A DNA stretch of 64,000 nucleotides. Origin: a virus. The DNA lies in IMG/VR virus record IMGVR_UViG_3300021425_003021, positions 41,491-105,490 of that record. One strand, 5' to 3'. The notes under the pieces were generated by a model. The model had not been told where the DNA came from. It was given only the letters and a program-made list of their open reading frames with translations, and did no database searches. The position numbers and the translations under genes were made by a program. Positions 49,753 through 59,025 of the stretch are shown in pieces. Every line of letters starts with the position of its first letter. Position 1 is the stretch's first letter.

Positions 49753-50503
49753 TGTACACTCCTGCAAGACATATTCTTGCTGTTTCTCCATCACGCATAA
49801 ATTTTGCGTATTCTTTGTCTTTAGTTGTAGCAAGCCAAACACTGTCACTTGGCACAAAGTTCAATTGCTCACAAAATGTTTTTTGTTTATTATATAACTT
49901 ATTATGAACATAGTCAATATCAAAATTACTTATTACAGTTTCTGCTATGTTATGTGCATAGTAGTTATAATATTTTGCACTATGCGTTAATGATTCTAAA
50001 CGTTCGTCTGGAGATTTTGTAAATATCCAACCTGTGCGGACATTGCGTAAACCGAACGCTTTTGACAAACTAAAGAAAGCATACTCAACATTACCAAAAT
50101 TGTGTATATATTGTATCTTAGTGCTTCCAACATATGCTAAATCTAGTGCCACAGGATCTAAAATTGGCAATTCTCTAAAATTTCCGTTAATTGCACTAGG
50201 GATGCTCACATATACTATCTTGCCACATCGATCGGTTGGTTTAATCCACTGATAATCACCTACATCCATATAGACGCTTCTATACTCATTGTTGTACCAC
50301 CAGTTTAAACCCTCTGTACATCCATTCATAGGATATACATTATATCCTTCTAAATTAATAATAGGACGTAGCCATTTAATTATATCTGTTTTGTAAGGGG
50401 TAATACTGTGCAAATCTAGATCAACTGAACGCACAACTTTTTCTACTTCTGGTAGTACTGGAGTTCTAATTGCTAAACTTTGTTTAAGTAAAAAATCTTT
50501 CAA
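49739..50503 (-). CDS. PLP-dependent aminotransferase-like protein (short)
   Basis: 254 residues from a TTG with GGAG seven bases upstream. NGCTEGLNWWYNNEYRSVYM has the G-x-T-E-G-L turn where PLP phosphate is held in fold type I enzymes. AFFSLSKAFGLRNVRTGWIF has SxxK followed by an Arg-containing strand. It parallels 45952-46788. The small C-terminal domain is reduced. It sits between the fatty-acid desaturase and hydroxylase genes in a tight reverse-strand operon, overlapping both by 14-20 bases. Confidence 0.65.
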   Translation of the reverse strand: MKDFLLKQSLAIRTPVLPEVEKVVRSVDLDLHSITPYKTDIIKWLRPIINLEGYNVYPMNGCTEGLNWWYNNEYRSVYMDVGDYQWIKPTDRCGKIVYVSIPSAINGNFRELPILDPVALDLAYVGSTKIQYIHNFGNVEYAFFSLSKAFGLRNVRTGWIFTKSPDERLESLTHSAKYYNYYAHNIAETVISNFDIDYVHNKLYNKQKTFCEQLNFVPSDSVWLATTKDKEYAKFMRDGETARICLAGVYNEET

Positions 50504-51101
50504 TAACTACTCCTGCTATATCATACTTGTGTAATTTATATGATTGTGGTTGTTGATGATGCTTTAAGTGCCATCCTTCTCCTGGTGCAATTAAATTTAA
50601 CAACGGAACATTTTGTGGTTCGCCGTCTTTGTGTGCAAAATAATTTAACATTCCGAAGCCTGTCCAAGACAAAACAAATGGAACAAAAACAATTACAAAA
50701 AATAATTTAATGTCTATAATAATTGTTACAAGTGCAATCAATAGATGTAGATACTTGCCATTTTTATGGAACCATACTATTCTTGGATTTTTTAACAAAT
50801 TAGAAATATACTTGCGAGGTATATAATCCACTGTCCAATTACTCGTTAAAACTTTCCAAGCACCTTGATACTTAGGACTATGAGGATCTAACAAAGTATC
50901 TGATTTTGCGTGATGCATACGGTGAACAGCAGCCCAGGTTAATGCACTACGACCACCGCAGATAAGTCCTAACAATAACATAATTACTTCTACAATACTA
51001 TTGGTTTTAAAAGTGTTGTGTGTAAAATATCTATGATAACCAATACTTATGCCTATTAAAGCCGCAAAGAAATACCATAGATATCCGTATATAAAAATCA
51101 T
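50484..51101 (-). CDS. Membrane fatty-acid desaturase
   Basis: 205 residues. The three histidine boxes of acyl-CoA/acyl-lipid delta-9 desaturases are present: HRYFTH at 23-28, HRMHH at 60-64 and HLKHH near 178. Hydrophobic segments (residues ~4-20, 38-50, 118-145) fit a membrane protein with the di-iron site on the cytoplasmic side. The family inserts a cis double bond into fatty acyl chains with O2. Such genes are known in some marine phages. A consensus promoter ends at the ATG (leaderless). It overlaps the aminotransferase-like gene by 20 bases. Confidence 0.85.
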   Translation of the reverse strand: MIFIYGYLWYFFAALIGISIGYHRYFTHNTFKTNSIVEVIMLLLGLICGGRSALTWAAVHRMHHAKSDTLLDPHSPKYQGAWKVLTSNWTVDYIPRKYISNLLKNPRIVWFHKNGKYLHLLIALVTIIIDIKLFFVIVFVPFVLSWTGFGMLNYFAHKDGEPQNVPLLNLIAPGEGWHLKHHQQPQSYKLHKYDIAGVVIERFFT

Positions 51102-51135: not shown

Positions 51136-53070
51136 CTATATACCAAAGTTTCCAGATATGTTACTAGTCCAAGGTTTACTATCATCCCAAAGTGGACTGT
51201 AGAAATATCTGTTAGGGCCGCCCCATATACTGTCTTGGTTATCCCAAGTTATATCTGATGAAACAGTTATAGTGCCAACCATGCCTGCGTGATTACTGCA
51301 TTGATAATAATATGTGCCAGGTAAAGTTGGAGTCCATTGTACTCCATTGCCACCGTATGATCCTTGTCCTATTGCAGCTGGAGTTGTAACCTGATTGCCT
51401 GTGCCAGTACCTGCTGTATCTTTGATGTATAATGGGTGTGATACGTCAGCATTATTAATAATTGACAAAGTGTCACCTACTTTTACAGCTATTGAGTCGT
51501 TTGCTCCTGCTACTGATCCATTTCTGTCATTACCACTTGTAGTCCATTCAGATGTACCATTGTTAATAACGCTAACATTGTATGCTTCTGCTGTAGTAGC
51601 ATCGTCGTTAATCTTTTCGTCTTGGGCGTTTGCTTCCATATATGATTTTACTTGTGCAGGAGTCATTCCTGGATTTGCTTCTAATACACAAGCAATCATA
51701 CCTGCTATTTGCGGAGACGCCATACTTGTACCGGATATTTTCATTAATTTATAATTACTGTCTAGTGGAGAATCTGGTCCGCCGTAAGTATTGTATAAAG
51801 AACTAGTACCATTGTTATCTGTGCTTCCTACACTGATAATTTCTGTACCTGGAGCATATATGTTAACACCTGGTCCTGCACAACTGCTTTCAGCTTTTTG
51901 CTCTAAATTATTGGTATATGTAAAATCAATATTACCTACCATAAAGGCGTTCTCGCTATAAGGACTACTGCCTCGGAATATATATTCTTGTCCGCTACCA
52001 AAATTACAAGTGTCATTGTAATGGTCACCTGTACTACTATCGATATAATAATAACTATTGCCTGCTGCGATACAAAAAATAATTCCTTCATCTAGGCATT
52101 CTTGTAAATCTGCATCAACGCTTGCCACTCTAACATTTATACGTCTAGATAATCCTAAGACAGGAACCACTCCTACATTTGCCCAAGCATTATTACTACT
52201 GCTGCCATAATCTGCCCACGTCCAACTGTTTCCTAAAAACACACCACCAACTGGGGTTCCTCTACTACCACTGTAACCCCAACTGGCATTAACAACTGTT
52301 GGTCTTTTAACACCAGTTTTAGGATCTATTGGTTTGTTACGATGCCATAATTTGATTACATCAAAACAATCATTTATACTTATTCCTGTACCACTATCGC
52401 CACTGCCTTCTAATCCGTTAACCTTTACACTGTAAATTTGTGCATCTCTTGCCCATCCTTGTGTACGGCCTGCAACAGTGCCTGCACAGTGACTGCCATG
52501 GCTGTCGTAATCTCTATAGTGATTCACGCTCTGTGTTCCTGATAAACCGCTTGCTGCATACCAGTCTATTTGGTTAACTCTGCTTACACCTGCGCTATCT
52601 GTAAATTCAGGATGGTCAACTTGTATACCACTGTCTTGAATTACAACATCAACACCTTTACCTGTAAGTGTGTAATTGAAATCTTTTGTTATTGTAGCTA
52701 CTCCAGATCCGTAAGGATCGTTCTTTGAAACTCCTCTAACAAGCCCCCAGTTTAAATCTTCTGATAGTCCACTTGACGTGCTTTTCCTCCAAGCTGAACT
52801 TGTTTGAATTGCATTAAAACCTATTTCAATATCGTCTCTATCCTGTGGTGGAATTTGTACATCATCGACTCTACTGTCATTTCTTAATGCTGTTGCTTCA
52901 GCTTCTGTTAACGCATAGTGTGTATTTCTTTTTGAACCAGGTCTAGCATTTGCTATATCTACACTTCTACCTGGTATATCGCCTGCACCTGTTGATGCAA
53001 TCATTTCTGCATTAAAAGCATCATAATCAACACCTGCTTTAAGTGTTACAATATACTCTATCTCGCTCAT
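51136..53070 (-). CDS. Subtilase (S8) protease fused to a cupredoxin-like domain
   Basis: 644 residues. The N-terminal ~80 residues (YIVTLKAGVDYDAFNAEM, NTHYALTEAEATALRND) resemble an inhibitor-I9 propeptide. The S8 triad is D~142 (VVIQDSGIQVDHPEF), H~191 (DSHGSHCAGTVAG) and S~447 (ISGTSMASPQIAG). The last ~110 residues form a cupredoxin-like domain with SHPLYIK (His) near 544 and QCSNHAGM (Cys, His, Met) near 595, a full type-1 copper ligand set. AAGGAG precedes the ATG, and it follows the tail fibre gene by 9 bases. No signal peptide is visible. Because it sits beside a fibre gene, I infer virion-bound self-processing or degradation of host surface protein. Confidence 0.85.
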   Translation of the reverse strand: MSEIEYIVTLKAGVDYDAFNAEMIASTGAGDIPGRSVDIANARPGSKRNTHYALTEAEATALRNDSRVDDVQIPPQDRDDIEIGFNAIQTSSAWRKSTSSGLSEDLNWGLVRGVSKNDPYGSGVATITKDFNYTLTGKGVDVVIQDSGIQVDHPEFTDSAGVSRVNQIDWYAASGLSGTQSVNHYRDYDSHGSHCAGTVAGRTQGWARDAQIYSVKVNGLEGSGDSGTGISINDCFDVIKLWHRNKPIDPKTGVKRPTVVNASWGYSGSRGTPVGGVFLGNSWTWADYGSSSNNAWANVGVVPVLGLSRRINVRVASVDADLQECLDEGIIFCIAAGNSYYYIDSSTGDHYNDTCNFGSGQEYIFRGSSPYSENAFMVGNIDFTYTNNLEQKAESSCAGPGVNIYAPGTEIISVGSTDNNGTSSLYNTYGGPDSPLDSNYKLMKISGTSMASPQIAGMIACVLEANPGMTPAQVKSYMEANAQDEKINDDATTAEAYNVSVINNGTSEWTTSGNDRNGSVAGANDSIAVKVGDTLSIINNADVSHPLYIKDTAGTGTGNQVTTPAAIGQGSYGGNGVQWTPTLPGTYYYQCSNHAGMVGTITVSSDITWDNQDSIWGGPNRYFYSPLWDDSKPWTSNISGNFGI

Positions 53071-53079
53071 GGAGTCTCC

Positions 53080-54993
53080 TTAGTGTAAGTCTACCCAAGC
53101 ACCGTTAGCATATCCTTGGAATTTGTTTGTCGTTGTGTTATAAATCATGTCACCGTTTTGTGATGCAAGTAGATCACGTTCTGTAGTTGTAAATGATGCA
53201 AATCTCACTGGTGATTGTGTTATTACAACTGCATTACCTGCAGTAAGATTCAAATTACTTGCAGCAGTAATTTCAGGAGTACCTGTGCTTGTACTTTCAA
53301 AACTGTCCGCAACAACCTTATTTGTAACATACAAATTGTTTTCTACTGTAGCATCGCTTTGTAAAGTTACCGCAGGAGTTATTGTGATACCACTACTATC
53401 GCTTGTGTCTATAATTGAACCTGAATATGTAATATTACCCAAGTCTGCAGGTTGAACTGCACTATCTGCTAAAGCACCTTGAGCACTAGTAGCTGCATCA
53501 GTAATTCCATAACCTGCTAAAGTTGTTGGGGTACCTGCTAACACACTCCATTGTATACTGCCGTCTGTACCGTCAATAATTACTGTGCTATCGTCTGCAT
53601 AAACACTACCTTTTAGATCACCTGTTACATTACCTACAAATGTATCACCTGGCTGTACAGCAGTATCTGCTAAAGCACCTTGAGCACTAGTAGCTGCATC
53701 AGTAATTCCATAACCTGCTAGTGTAGTAGGTTTACTTGTAAGTGCAGCAAATGTACCATCAAAGTCTGCAACAATTGTAATGTCGCCTTCAGCATTTGAG
53801 CTGGTGCTAATACCTGTTCCGCCTAAAATTAGGAAACTTTCTCCGCTGTTTATAAGTCTAACAGCACTATCATCTGCACCGACACCAATATTTCCAATGC
53901 CACCGCTGCCACCTGATCCTGCAACATCTACATCGTTTACCCATTCGCTACCGTTGTATTTTAATACCTGACCTGCTTGTGGATTAGTTGTGATTACGTT
54001 GCCTAAATCGGTAATATCGTTAGGAGCAAGATTTAGTTTACCTGCAACTCCGTCAACTAGTATTGTAGAATCGTCTGCTGCAAATGTACCTTTAAATGCA
54101 GTAGCCTGTACTTCTCCAGCAAATAGCCCGTCGCCTTTTACATCCAATGTTGCTGCTGGGGTGTATGTACCAATACCAAAACGTCCAGTGTTGGTGTGAA
54201 CTAGATATTCTGCCTCTATATCAAACTGGCCGTTTGTGCTTGTACAAATTAAAGTTTTGTCGGTACCAAATGCAAGACTATTATGATAGTATTCTCCATT
54301 TATGTCATCACGTCCGCCAAAAATAGCCGATTCGTAATATGTAGAGCTAATATCAGTTGTTGCTGTTTTTTCTAAAAACAATTTGGAAACATCGTTATTT
54401 CCTTTGATTTTCATACTGAATACACTATTAGGATTTGTACTTTTTATGTCAAAGCTTTCTGCCACACTGAATACTGTATTAGTTGAATTAGTAATATTTC
54501 CAACATTATCTAAAGATAATGTGCCAACTGTTGCTGATTCTGCATTGACAGTGTTATTCACACCGTCTACAATCACTGCACTGTTGTCGCCAAACACACT
54601 ACCAGTCAAATCACCGTCAAAATTACCATTAAACAATGTTGCAGCCATTGTAGTTGCATTGACATAACCGCCTGCGTCAATATTTAAATTTACATCAATA
54701 CTTCCTGTTGCATTAATATTGCCTGTAGTATCAATATCGCCTGTTCCAGTAATATCGTAGCTGTTTAAATCTAAATTACCGCCTAATTGAGGAGTCGTAT
54801 CGTTAACAATATCGGTGATGCCACCCCCGCCACCTGCACTAGATATTTCATTACCACCTACAGTAGATCCGTCACCAATCCATACCGGAGAAACCCCAGC
54901 ACTATCATAGTCTGTAACGTAAATTAATTCACCTAATTCTGGGGTGTAAGACAACCTTTCGGTATTGGTGCCTCTTTTTATTCTCAAAGCCAT
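53080..54993 (-). CDS. Tail fibre protein
   Basis: 637 residues. The N-terminus (IKRGTNTERLSYTPELGELI) is a short attachment-type domain. The middle holds shaft repeats, including two copies of PTTLAGYGITDAATSAQGAL (from a 57-base DNA repeat), plus TVIVDGVNN-type turns. The C-terminus is MIYNTTTNKFQGYANGAWVD, a common fibre-tip ending also found in 14375-15820. GTAGGAG precedes the ATG at 54991-54993, with an ATAAATAC box behind. Shaft and end motifs make it a fibre; its partner is the subtilase gene nine bases downstream. Confidence 0.8.
   Translation of the reverse strand: MALRIKRGTNTERLSYTPELGELIYVTDYDSAGVSPVWIGDGSTVGGNEISSAGGGGGITDIVNDTTPQLGGNLDLNSYDITGTGDIDTTGNINATGSIDVNLNIDAGGYVNATTMAATLFNGNFDGDLTGSVFGDNSAVIVDGVNNTVNAESATVGTLSLDNVGNITNSTNTVFSVAESFDIKSTNPNSVFSMKIKGNNDVSKLFLEKTATTDISSTYYESAIFGGRDDINGEYYHNSLAFGTDKTLICTSTNGQFDIEAEYLVHTNTGRFGIGTYTPAATLDVKGDGLFAGEVQATAFKGTFAADDSTILVDGVAGKLNLAPNDITDLGNVITTNPQAGQVLKYNGSEWVNDVDVAGSGGSGGIGNIGVGADDSAVRLINSGESFLILGGTGISTSSNAEGDITIVADFDGTFAALTSKPTTLAGYGITDAATSAQGALADTAVQPGDTFVGNVTGDLKGSVYADDSTVIIDGTDGSIQWSVLAGTPTTLAGYGITDAATSAQGALADSAVQPADLGNITYSGSIIDTSDSSGITITPAVTLQSDATVENNLYVTNKVVADSFESTSTGTPEITAASNLNLTAGNAVVITQSPVRFASFTTTERDLLASQNGDMIYNTTTNKFQGYANGAWVDLH
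53463..53519 (-). repeat. 57-bp perfect direct repeat, copy 1
   Basis: This stretch occurs again unchanged at 53664-53720, 201 bases away (67 codons). Both copies lie in the tail-fibre gene and encode the same GYGITDAATSAQGALAD segment. The perfect DNA identity suggests recent duplication or conversion, which could change fibre length. Confidence 0.85.
53664..53720 (-). repeat. 57-bp perfect direct repeat, copy 2
   Basis: Second copy of the repeat described at 53463. It is in the same reading frame, so a recombination between the copies would delete or add 67 codons without a frameshift. Confidence 0.85.
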
Positions 54994-57936: not shown

Positions 57937-59025
57937 TTAAACAGTTTGGGCAGCCTTGATATATTTGCCGTAACGGTCATGAAACTCGTCGAAGCAACTA
58001 ACTGCATCTGGATCAATTGGAAGATTGTATTGTGTAAGAGCAAGTTTAATACCCATTACAACAAGTTCAGTCTCAAAATTATCCATTGCAAACCGTAAAA
58101 AATTGTTAACTTTGTTATCAAATTTCTTATCATTTGCATCGCTTGCTTCTTTGAGCTCATAGCAAAGAGAAACAGTTAAGGAATACTTAGCACTGATTTC
58201 CTGTGTTTTAATCTCTTTAACTTTGCCTGCCAAGATATCACTTGGATTAGGCATATTTGCCGCTACTTTTCTATGAGCCATAAATTTTACAGCCAAACCT
58301 TCTCCTACTGCACCTGCAACTAGGTCTGTAGTAGTAGATTCATCTGTATCATCTTCATCTAGTAATTCACTTACAAAACTCCAGCTACGAGGAGTAGCAA
58401 ATGAGCGACTAGGAGATTTAGGATCAAAATCATAAAGATCCTGTTTAGCAAATTGCAAATATCCAACAACGTCTGTGTTTACTTTGTTAGATACAGCCCA
58501 TTCAAACCAGTCGTCAAAGTTGACTGCTAGTTCCAAATGAACAAAGCGATTTGCAAGCGGAGCAGGCATACGATATGTTACACCTTTATCTGCTTCGCGG
58601 TTACCTGCTGCAACGATAATAACGTTATCAGGTAATTTGTATTGTCCTACTCGACGATTTAAAATCAACTGGTATGCTGCCGCTTGTACTGCTGGCGCTG
58701 CGGAGTTCATTTCGTCAAAAAATACAACAATGTTATCGTATTGTGATGCTAGTTCTTCTGATGGAAGCTCACTCGGAGCACCCCAAACCATAGTGCCCGA
58801 ATTGCTATCAAAATAAGGAATACCTTTAATGTCTGTAGGTTCCCAAAGAGACAGTCGAATATCAATCAAATAACTGTTAGGTAGGCTATCTGTGATTTGC
58901 GAAATAATATCTGACTTGCCAATACCTGGAGGCCCCCATAAAAAGATAGGGCGTTTCTTTTGCATTGCACGAACAATACTTTTCTTTGCACGGTTCGGGC
59001 TTACAGTTCTTGTCATAGTATCCAT
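57937..59025 (-). CDS. MoxR-type AAA+ ATPase
   Basis: 362 residues. FLWGPPGIGKSD at 28-39 is the Walker A loop and IVVFFDEMNSA near 100 the Walker B with DEMN, typical of MoxR. YRMPAPLANRFVHLEL holds the arginine-finger-like region (NRF). Together with the downstream VWA protein the pair resembles MoxR/VWA chaperone systems found in bacteria and in many T4-like marine phages. AAAGGA is ~7 bases before the ATG, and a TTGACG/TAATAT promoter lies upstream. A UUCG hairpin follows the stop codon. Confidence 0.85.
   Translation of the reverse strand: MDTMTRTVSPNRAKKSIVRAMQKKRPIFLWGPPGIGKSDIISQITDSLPNSYLIDIRLSLWEPTDIKGIPYFDSNSGTMVWGAPSELPSEELASQYDNIVVFFDEMNSAAPAVQAAAYQLILNRRVGQYKLPDNVIIVAAGNREADKGVTYRMPAPLANRFVHLELAVNFDDWFEWAVSNKVNTDVVGYLQFAKQDLYDFDPKSPSRSFATPRSWSFVSELLDEDDTDESTTTDLVAGAVGEGLAVKFMAHRKVAANMPNPSDILAGKVKEIKTQEISAKYSLTVSLCYELKEASDANDKKFDNKVNNFLRFAMDNFETELVVMGIKLALTQYNLPIDPDAVSCFDEFHDRYGKYIKAAQTV

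Follow-up and report, generated by a model that had tools for sequence, protein, structure and literature searches.

The window analysed here is a stretch of 64,000 nucleotides from a virus record, and its source is a large marine tailed phage. On the minus strand, an ORF with an ATG start (51136..53070) encodes a protein of 644 aa made of a propeptide-like domain, a subtilase domain of peptidase family S8, an inserted cupredoxin domain and a tail. Homologues spanning its whole length are found in marine viral contigs. Immediately upstream, on the same strand, lies a tail-fibre-like gene (53080..54993, 637 aa), which has a weak Mtd_N-like start (14 bits in Pfam, below the cut-off) and is a conserved partner across the relatives. 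Nine bases separate the end of the fibre stop codon (53080) from the subtilase ATG (53070), and an AAGGAG ribosome-binding site (53076..53081, minus strand) overlaps that stop codon. The fold of the start-codon region of the subtilase gave nothing of note. A hydrophobic signal sequence is not visible at the subtilase N terminus when read by eye. The exact position of the ORF, its nine-base spacing from the fibre gene and the lack of a signal peptide had all been claimed in the first-pass annotation, and they stand.

In PHROGs, the protease part of the protein falls into phrog_9158, and the cupredoxin part also matches phrog_27200, phrog_15006 (tail fibre) and phrog_677 (baseplate wedge tail fibre connector). 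No NCBIfam equivalog scores above its cut-off for this protein. Other genes of the window include one for a DesA-like fatty-acid desaturase (50484-51101, minus strand), 34 bases after the subtilase; the related locus L044 has a gene of equal length (205 aa) in the same place. The minus-strand gene at 56515-57840 matches a PHROG labelled HNH endonuclease, and its protein has an HEILH motif; we take the product to be more like a metallopeptidase or VWA-type protein, adjoining an AAA ATPase (57937-59025). Genes for several radical-SAM proteins and one of the UDP-glucose dehydrogenase type lie in one stretch of the plus strand at about 12400-36200.

The catalytic domain (residues 137-485; 51616..52662, minus strand) matches Pfam Peptidase_S8 (PF00082) with 106.6 bits against a cut-off of 21.8. 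Alignment places the catalytic Asp146 at codon 52633..52635, the catalytic His191, first His of HGSH, at 52498..52500, the oxyanion-hole Asn338 at 52057..52059 and the nucleophile Ser449 (GTSMA) at 51724..51726, all on the minus strand. We assume these roles from the corresponding residues of subtilisin, H191 presumably being the equivalent of subtilisin His64. From the matches listed, which are not the total of relatives, 114 subtilase loci were aligned to the window protein; D146, H191, H194, N338 and S449 are kept in all 111 loci that cover them, and the remaining three are cut by contig ends. The first hits of the PDB sequence search with the catalytic domain are aqualysin-1, keratinase and proteinase K, and the full-length AF2 model reaches VIA Z scores of up to 26.8 to PCSK9 and 24.9 to pro-subtilisin E. 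Motif residues, profile match and fold thus all place the protein in family S8, and the full D/H/S triad noticed earlier is confirmed as D146/H191/S449, together with N338. Between the window and three relatives, dN/dS is 0.085-0.163 for the catalytic part and 0.116-0.143 for the cupredoxin, ratios that are rough because dS exceeds 1 for both parts in all three comparisons. A pseudogene or degraded protease is ruled out by the catalytic conservation and the low dN/dS, and the protein is predicted from its sequence to be a proteolytically competent subtilase.

Residues 1-80 (52831..53070, minus strand) resemble an I9 propeptide by fold. In the AF2 model they follow a beta-alpha-beta-beta-alpha-beta order with pLDDT mostly of 80-88, except for residues 21-40. 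The alignment of the full-length model starts at residue 3 with PCSK9 and at residue 2 with pro-subtilisin E (3whi), structures that include a propeptide or prodomain. Pfam gives no match for this region at E<=0.1, so the likeness to I9, which had been proposed for the start of the protein, holds at the level of predicted fold and is not borne out by Pfam. In the related loci L064 and L085, the gene upstream of the subtilase itself starts with an I9-like N terminus, which suggests tandem subtilases.

The cupredoxin (type-1 copper) domain occupies residues 500-606 (51253..51573, minus strand) and is recognised by Pfam, AF2 and VIA. Pfam Copper-bind scores 30.6 bits at residues 524-603, above the curated cut-off; the cut-offs of the plastocyanin equivalog TIGR02656 (24.7 against 87.85 bits) and of the amicyanin equivalog TIGR02657 (22.1 against 110.2 bits) are not reached. 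The predicted copper ligands, located by alignment, are His545 (codon 51436..51438), Cys591 (51298..51300), His594 (51289..51291) and Met597 (51280..51282), all on the minus strand. The last three form a CxxHxxM loop, which by its shortness presumably resembles that of amicyanin.

Folded alone by AF2 with 37 natural sequences, the domain gives a model with mean pLDDT 96.3 and pTM 0.89. Its best VIA match, with Z 11.8 over 96 residues at 2.3 A, is 2dv6, the N-terminal copper domain of Hyphomicrobium nitrite reductase; rusticyanin is matched with Z 9.6, and all 50 matches listed are copper proteins or their mutants. In the PDB sequence search, C591, H594 and the glycine-methionine loop end line up with plastocyanin, and H545 falls in the plastocyanin histidine region. 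The ligand positions therefore sit inside a confidently predicted cupredoxin fold that matches copper proteins. The full-length model is weaker (mean pLDDT 65.6, with residues 380-450 and 606-644 below 50); its alignments to PCSK9 and pro-subtilisin E start at residue 2-3 and reach about residue 627.

Over 46 distinct domains sharing less than 90% identity, of which subtilases contribute 19 and other proteins 27, the first His and the Cys are present in 46/46, the second His in 45/46 and the Met in 44/46, and the missing ligands (one second His, two Met) are gaps. A separate search used a profile with the ligand columns masked, so as not to reward ligands. With this profile, 52 of 57 distinct hits have complete HCHM, and two are partial, namely HC-- at a contig end and HCH- at an alignment end. 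Ligands are lacking in the other three, which are sub-threshold (iE 0.057-4); a weak stretch in L029 is among the ligand-less. A natural contrast to the ligand-complete copies is found in the same virus record, outside the window (G000:C1:28806-29111, plus strand), where an ORF of 4594 aa includes a diverged cupredoxin-like stretch (22 bits) that has lost the copper ligands. Because of this loss, it may be proposed that the cupredoxin fold can serve without metal. Judged by the residues kept, the copper site is retained where the domain serves the protease or fibre ends and can be lost elsewhere, and ligand invariance holds for the close family only, in which no full-length domain lacks a ligand.

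Chance likeness to a copper motif is ruled out by the Pfam score, the confident fold and the ligand conservation. Ligands at the family positions and a Greek-key beta-sandwich both place the domain among the type-1 copper cupredoxins, and the His, Cys, His and Met ligands foreseen before the analysis are identified as H545, C591, H594 and M597. From ligands and predicted fold, the domain most likely binds one copper ion.

The cupredoxin is followed by 38 residues (607-644; 51139..51252, minus strand), a conserved tail with PNRYFYSP that represents the last element of the protease fold. This part, with WDNQDSIWGGPNRYFYSP, matches the tail of natural relatives that have no cupredoxin; in one of these, L047, the corresponding tail carries WDDQDSVQGGPNRIFKTP. 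In the structural alignment, the model matches proteinase-K-like proteins to their chain ends, up to residues 626-629, which lie within the low-confidence region 606-644. Since the tail aligns with cupredoxin-less relatives and with the ends of proteinase-K-like chains, the window cupredoxin is an insertion just before the last protease element. Simple C-terminal fusion is rejected for this type of protein by the same alignment to natural cupredoxin-less relatives. The domain had been described as C-terminal; it is indeed near the C terminus, but it is internal and not terminal.

Other arrangements occur among the relatives. The cupredoxin is the extreme C terminus in loci L111, L119, L112, L074 and L102 and in cyanophages ACG-2014i, S-CAM4, S-H9-1 and ACG-2014h, and P-HM1 has one cupredoxin before and one after the S8 domain. 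The pairing of a subtilase with type-1 copper ligands in one protein, called unusual in the first-pass annotation, is thus real and not unique, as 21 of the 76 subtilases on a catalytic-domain tree carry the domain. This tree comprises 77 clusters minus the truncated L005 and L062, plus P-HM1. Presence and absence of the cupredoxin need at least seven changes on it, gains and losses being indistinguishable on a tree made by a quick method and with a very long P-HM1 branch.

Another module also occurs at different places in these proteases. In L013, L014 and L019, about 310 aa are inserted between the Asp region and the His region; in L007-L011, a module of about 300 aa that looks like this one follows the protease, in the C-terminal region. 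Stretches common to both include GGSLxPEWxDxxRT and NPLGYALF. Within this module, L007:2649-5750 and L011:8001-10754 contain a dockerin/EF-hand-like stretch (RGDINNDGQIDIDDVMAFLSF in L007), for which the Pfam EF-hand score in L007 is 12.9 bits, below the cut-off.

Gene neighbourhoods were judged on 77 clusters at 95% identity, derived from the 114 subtilases, with ORFs called mechanically (at least 80 aa, longest first). An upstream ORF is present in 75/77 clusters and is on the same strand in 74. The distance to these 74 neighbours is -5 to 30 bases in 68 cases and exactly nine in 19. Of the 74, 53 resemble the fibre gene of the window (E<=0.01), a count that includes the window's own gene and may include low-complexity matches. 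The association of the subtilase with fibre or baseplate genes is thus conserved across the loci compared.

Cupredoxins are confined to the subtilase, the two genes upstream of it and the one downstream. By gene rank relative to the subtilase, cupredoxin-bearing ORFs number 9/69 at -2, 10/75 at -1, 20/77 at 0 and 4/74 at +1, with 0/592 at all other ranks together. At least one cupredoxin is present at 39 of the 77 loci and none is detectable at the other 38, so the domain is dispensable to the protease. All eight upstream genes ending in a cupredoxin that were scanned match phrog_677, the baseplate wedge tail fibre connector; the S-RIM4 connector, for example, consists of a T4 gp9/10 N-domain and a terminal cupredoxin. 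The cupredoxin is thus a shuffled module common to the subtilase and to fibre or baseplate proteins. A neighbour also has a cupredoxin at 2/20 loci where the protease has the domain and at 19/57 where it does not (one-sided p 0.037, two-sided 0.077, with relatedness ignored and counts tallied by hand), which is only suggestive of mutual exclusion between the protease and its neighbours.

Bacterial matches listed are ordinary subtilases with 22-40% identity. No cupredoxin was found in the best 80 bacterial subtilase loci among the matches listed (816 kb), which are not a random sample; this is weak evidence against acquisition from a bacterial subtilase already bearing the domain.

Indirect support for a virion-bound protein, proposed in the first-pass annotation, comes from cyanophage S-SCSM1. 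Its gp144 contains a homologous subtilase, about 28% identical and with intact motifs, together with lectin-like LamG domains and without cupredoxin; the note in its record reads 'baseplate wedge subunit (virion protein)'. Protein gp141 of the same phage, 'long tail fiber proximal subunit (virion protein)', has a ligand-complete cupredoxin (98 bits). Mass spectrometry is reported to have detected 45 S-SCSM1 proteins (PMC9602691). The record has 47 'virion protein' tags, counted by eye, and the three non-structural proteins named in that article are also tagged, under matching or similar names; because of this near agreement and these three proteins, the tag very probably marks detection by mass spectrometry. 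In S-CREM1, 14 proteins were detected, and the peptidase is unmentioned in the available parts of the S-CREM1 and S-CREM2 papers. S-SCSM1 gp221 (NC_070962.1, 127683-128006) is petE (plastocyanin) by its note and is named 'tail tip protein Tal'.

The best reading of the protein, to which we give about an even chance, is that of a protease associated with the tail and equipped with a module for docking or adhesion that is stiffened by metal. The subtilase would be made from the tail-fibre/baseplate gene cluster, its I9-like start probably acting as folding chaperone and as inhibitor until self-cleavage. The cupredoxin would provide a beta-sandwich with a metal site, of the kind that also ends fibre and baseplate-connector proteins of related phages, and the bound metal would stiffen this docking or adhesion module, which may bring the protease to the tail or to material on the host surface. 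As part of the virion, the enzyme would most likely trim host envelope or surface-layer proteins during attachment.

The tight pairing with the upstream fibre gene (68/74 at -5 to 30 bases) and the occurrence of cupredoxins at fibre ends are also consistent with a maturation protease, which would act during assembly by cutting the co-translated fibre or a different tail protein, use its cupredoxin to dock to the fibre and need not stay on the virion. The S-SCSM1 homologue is, however, tagged among virion proteins, and the upstream partners vary widely in length and ends whereas the protease core is conserved across relatives, which makes this role possible but unlikely. We regard as somewhat more doubtful an enzyme that is secreted or acts at lysis, at work inside or outside the lysing host rather than in the particle, with the fibre as a mere operon partner. 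Its catalytic domain is proteinase-K-like, as would suit such an enzyme, but the signal sequence is lacking, the coupling to fibre and baseplate genes is conserved and the virion tag of S-SCSM1 points to the particle.

A type-1 site could also sense redox state or take an electron at the host surface and so control the protease. For such a switch speak the complete ligand set, invariant in the close family, and the insertion of the window-type domain in the protease fold itself. Fibre and baseplate proteins without any protease bear the same module with all its ligands, which makes a dedicated redox switch less likely; moreover, in some relatives the domain forms the very end of the protease, many others lack it, and we know of no electron-transfer or other redox partner for a window-type cupredoxin. 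A copper redox switch is thus improbable. As the domain is inserted in the protease fold and shuffled among fibre and baseplate proteins, a general module for structure or binding is more likely than a special protease-redox partnership.

To our knowledge, metal in phage tails is discussed mainly for iron. That copper modules of the tail exploit host metal uptake or act as a sea-water copper ligand (cf. Ferrojan horse) seems the most remote of these explanations: the domain with its full set of ligands recurs as a tail module in marine phages, and iron in HxH tail-fibre motifs of marine phages is discussed in PMC11705849, but there is no receptor link, and the window-type domain is inside a protease and not at a fibre tip.

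Beyond the reading of a tail-associated protease, a broader proposal can be made, which we consider speculative and rather unlikely: marine phage tails may bear true blue-copper sites, on a ligand-complete cassette shuffled among a virion protease, baseplate connectors and fibre ends, and loading with copper from host or sea water would control tail rigidity, adhesion or activity. If true, such tails would be the copper counterpart of the iron-in-fibres idea. Related marine phages carry one small domain with invariant copper-site ligands again and again, at fibre ends, in baseplate connectors and in a protease, and this domain offers a direct and cheap test of copper in virus tails as well as a handle on the role of the tail-cluster protease.

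Cyanophage subtilases are already annotated, and the kind is known. In the open-access literature, we found no paper on cupredoxin in phage tails or its joining to subtilases, and no role for the long-annotated marine cyanophage subtilases. The subtilisin-like proteins of cyanomyoviruses in phrog_9158 (P-SSM2 PSSM2_297, the S-CREM1 peptidase, S-H38) belong to the same S8 family, have intact catalytic residues and lie in tail/baseplate gene clusters, like the window protein; unlike it, many of them are without cupredoxin. In P-SSM2, the gene next to PSSM2_297, for the proximal tail fibre protein, carries two cupredoxins. The connector of phrog_677, which is cyanophage gp9-like, has a C-terminal cupredoxin with the ligands of the window domain and no protease.

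The fold and ligand set of the window cupredoxin match those of plastocyanin, amicyanin, rusticyanin and the copper domain of Hyphomicrobium nitrite reductase, with 19-26% identity to the 2dv6 and rusticyanin rows. The proteinase K/aqualysin subfamily has a catalytic domain and a terminal element like those of the window protein, which differs in the cupredoxin inserted before the terminal element and in having no signal peptide. P-HM1 PHM1_104 (phrog_27200) is akin to the window protein in joining an S8 domain and two cupredoxins in one chain, but it has 1832 aa and further structural domains, and one of its cupredoxins precedes the S8 domain. The subtilases of ACG-2014i, S-CAM4, S-H9-1 and ACG-2014h have the same two domains as the window protein, with complete ligands and about 27-30% identity over the catalytic region, and their terminal cupredoxin stands against the internal insertion in the window.
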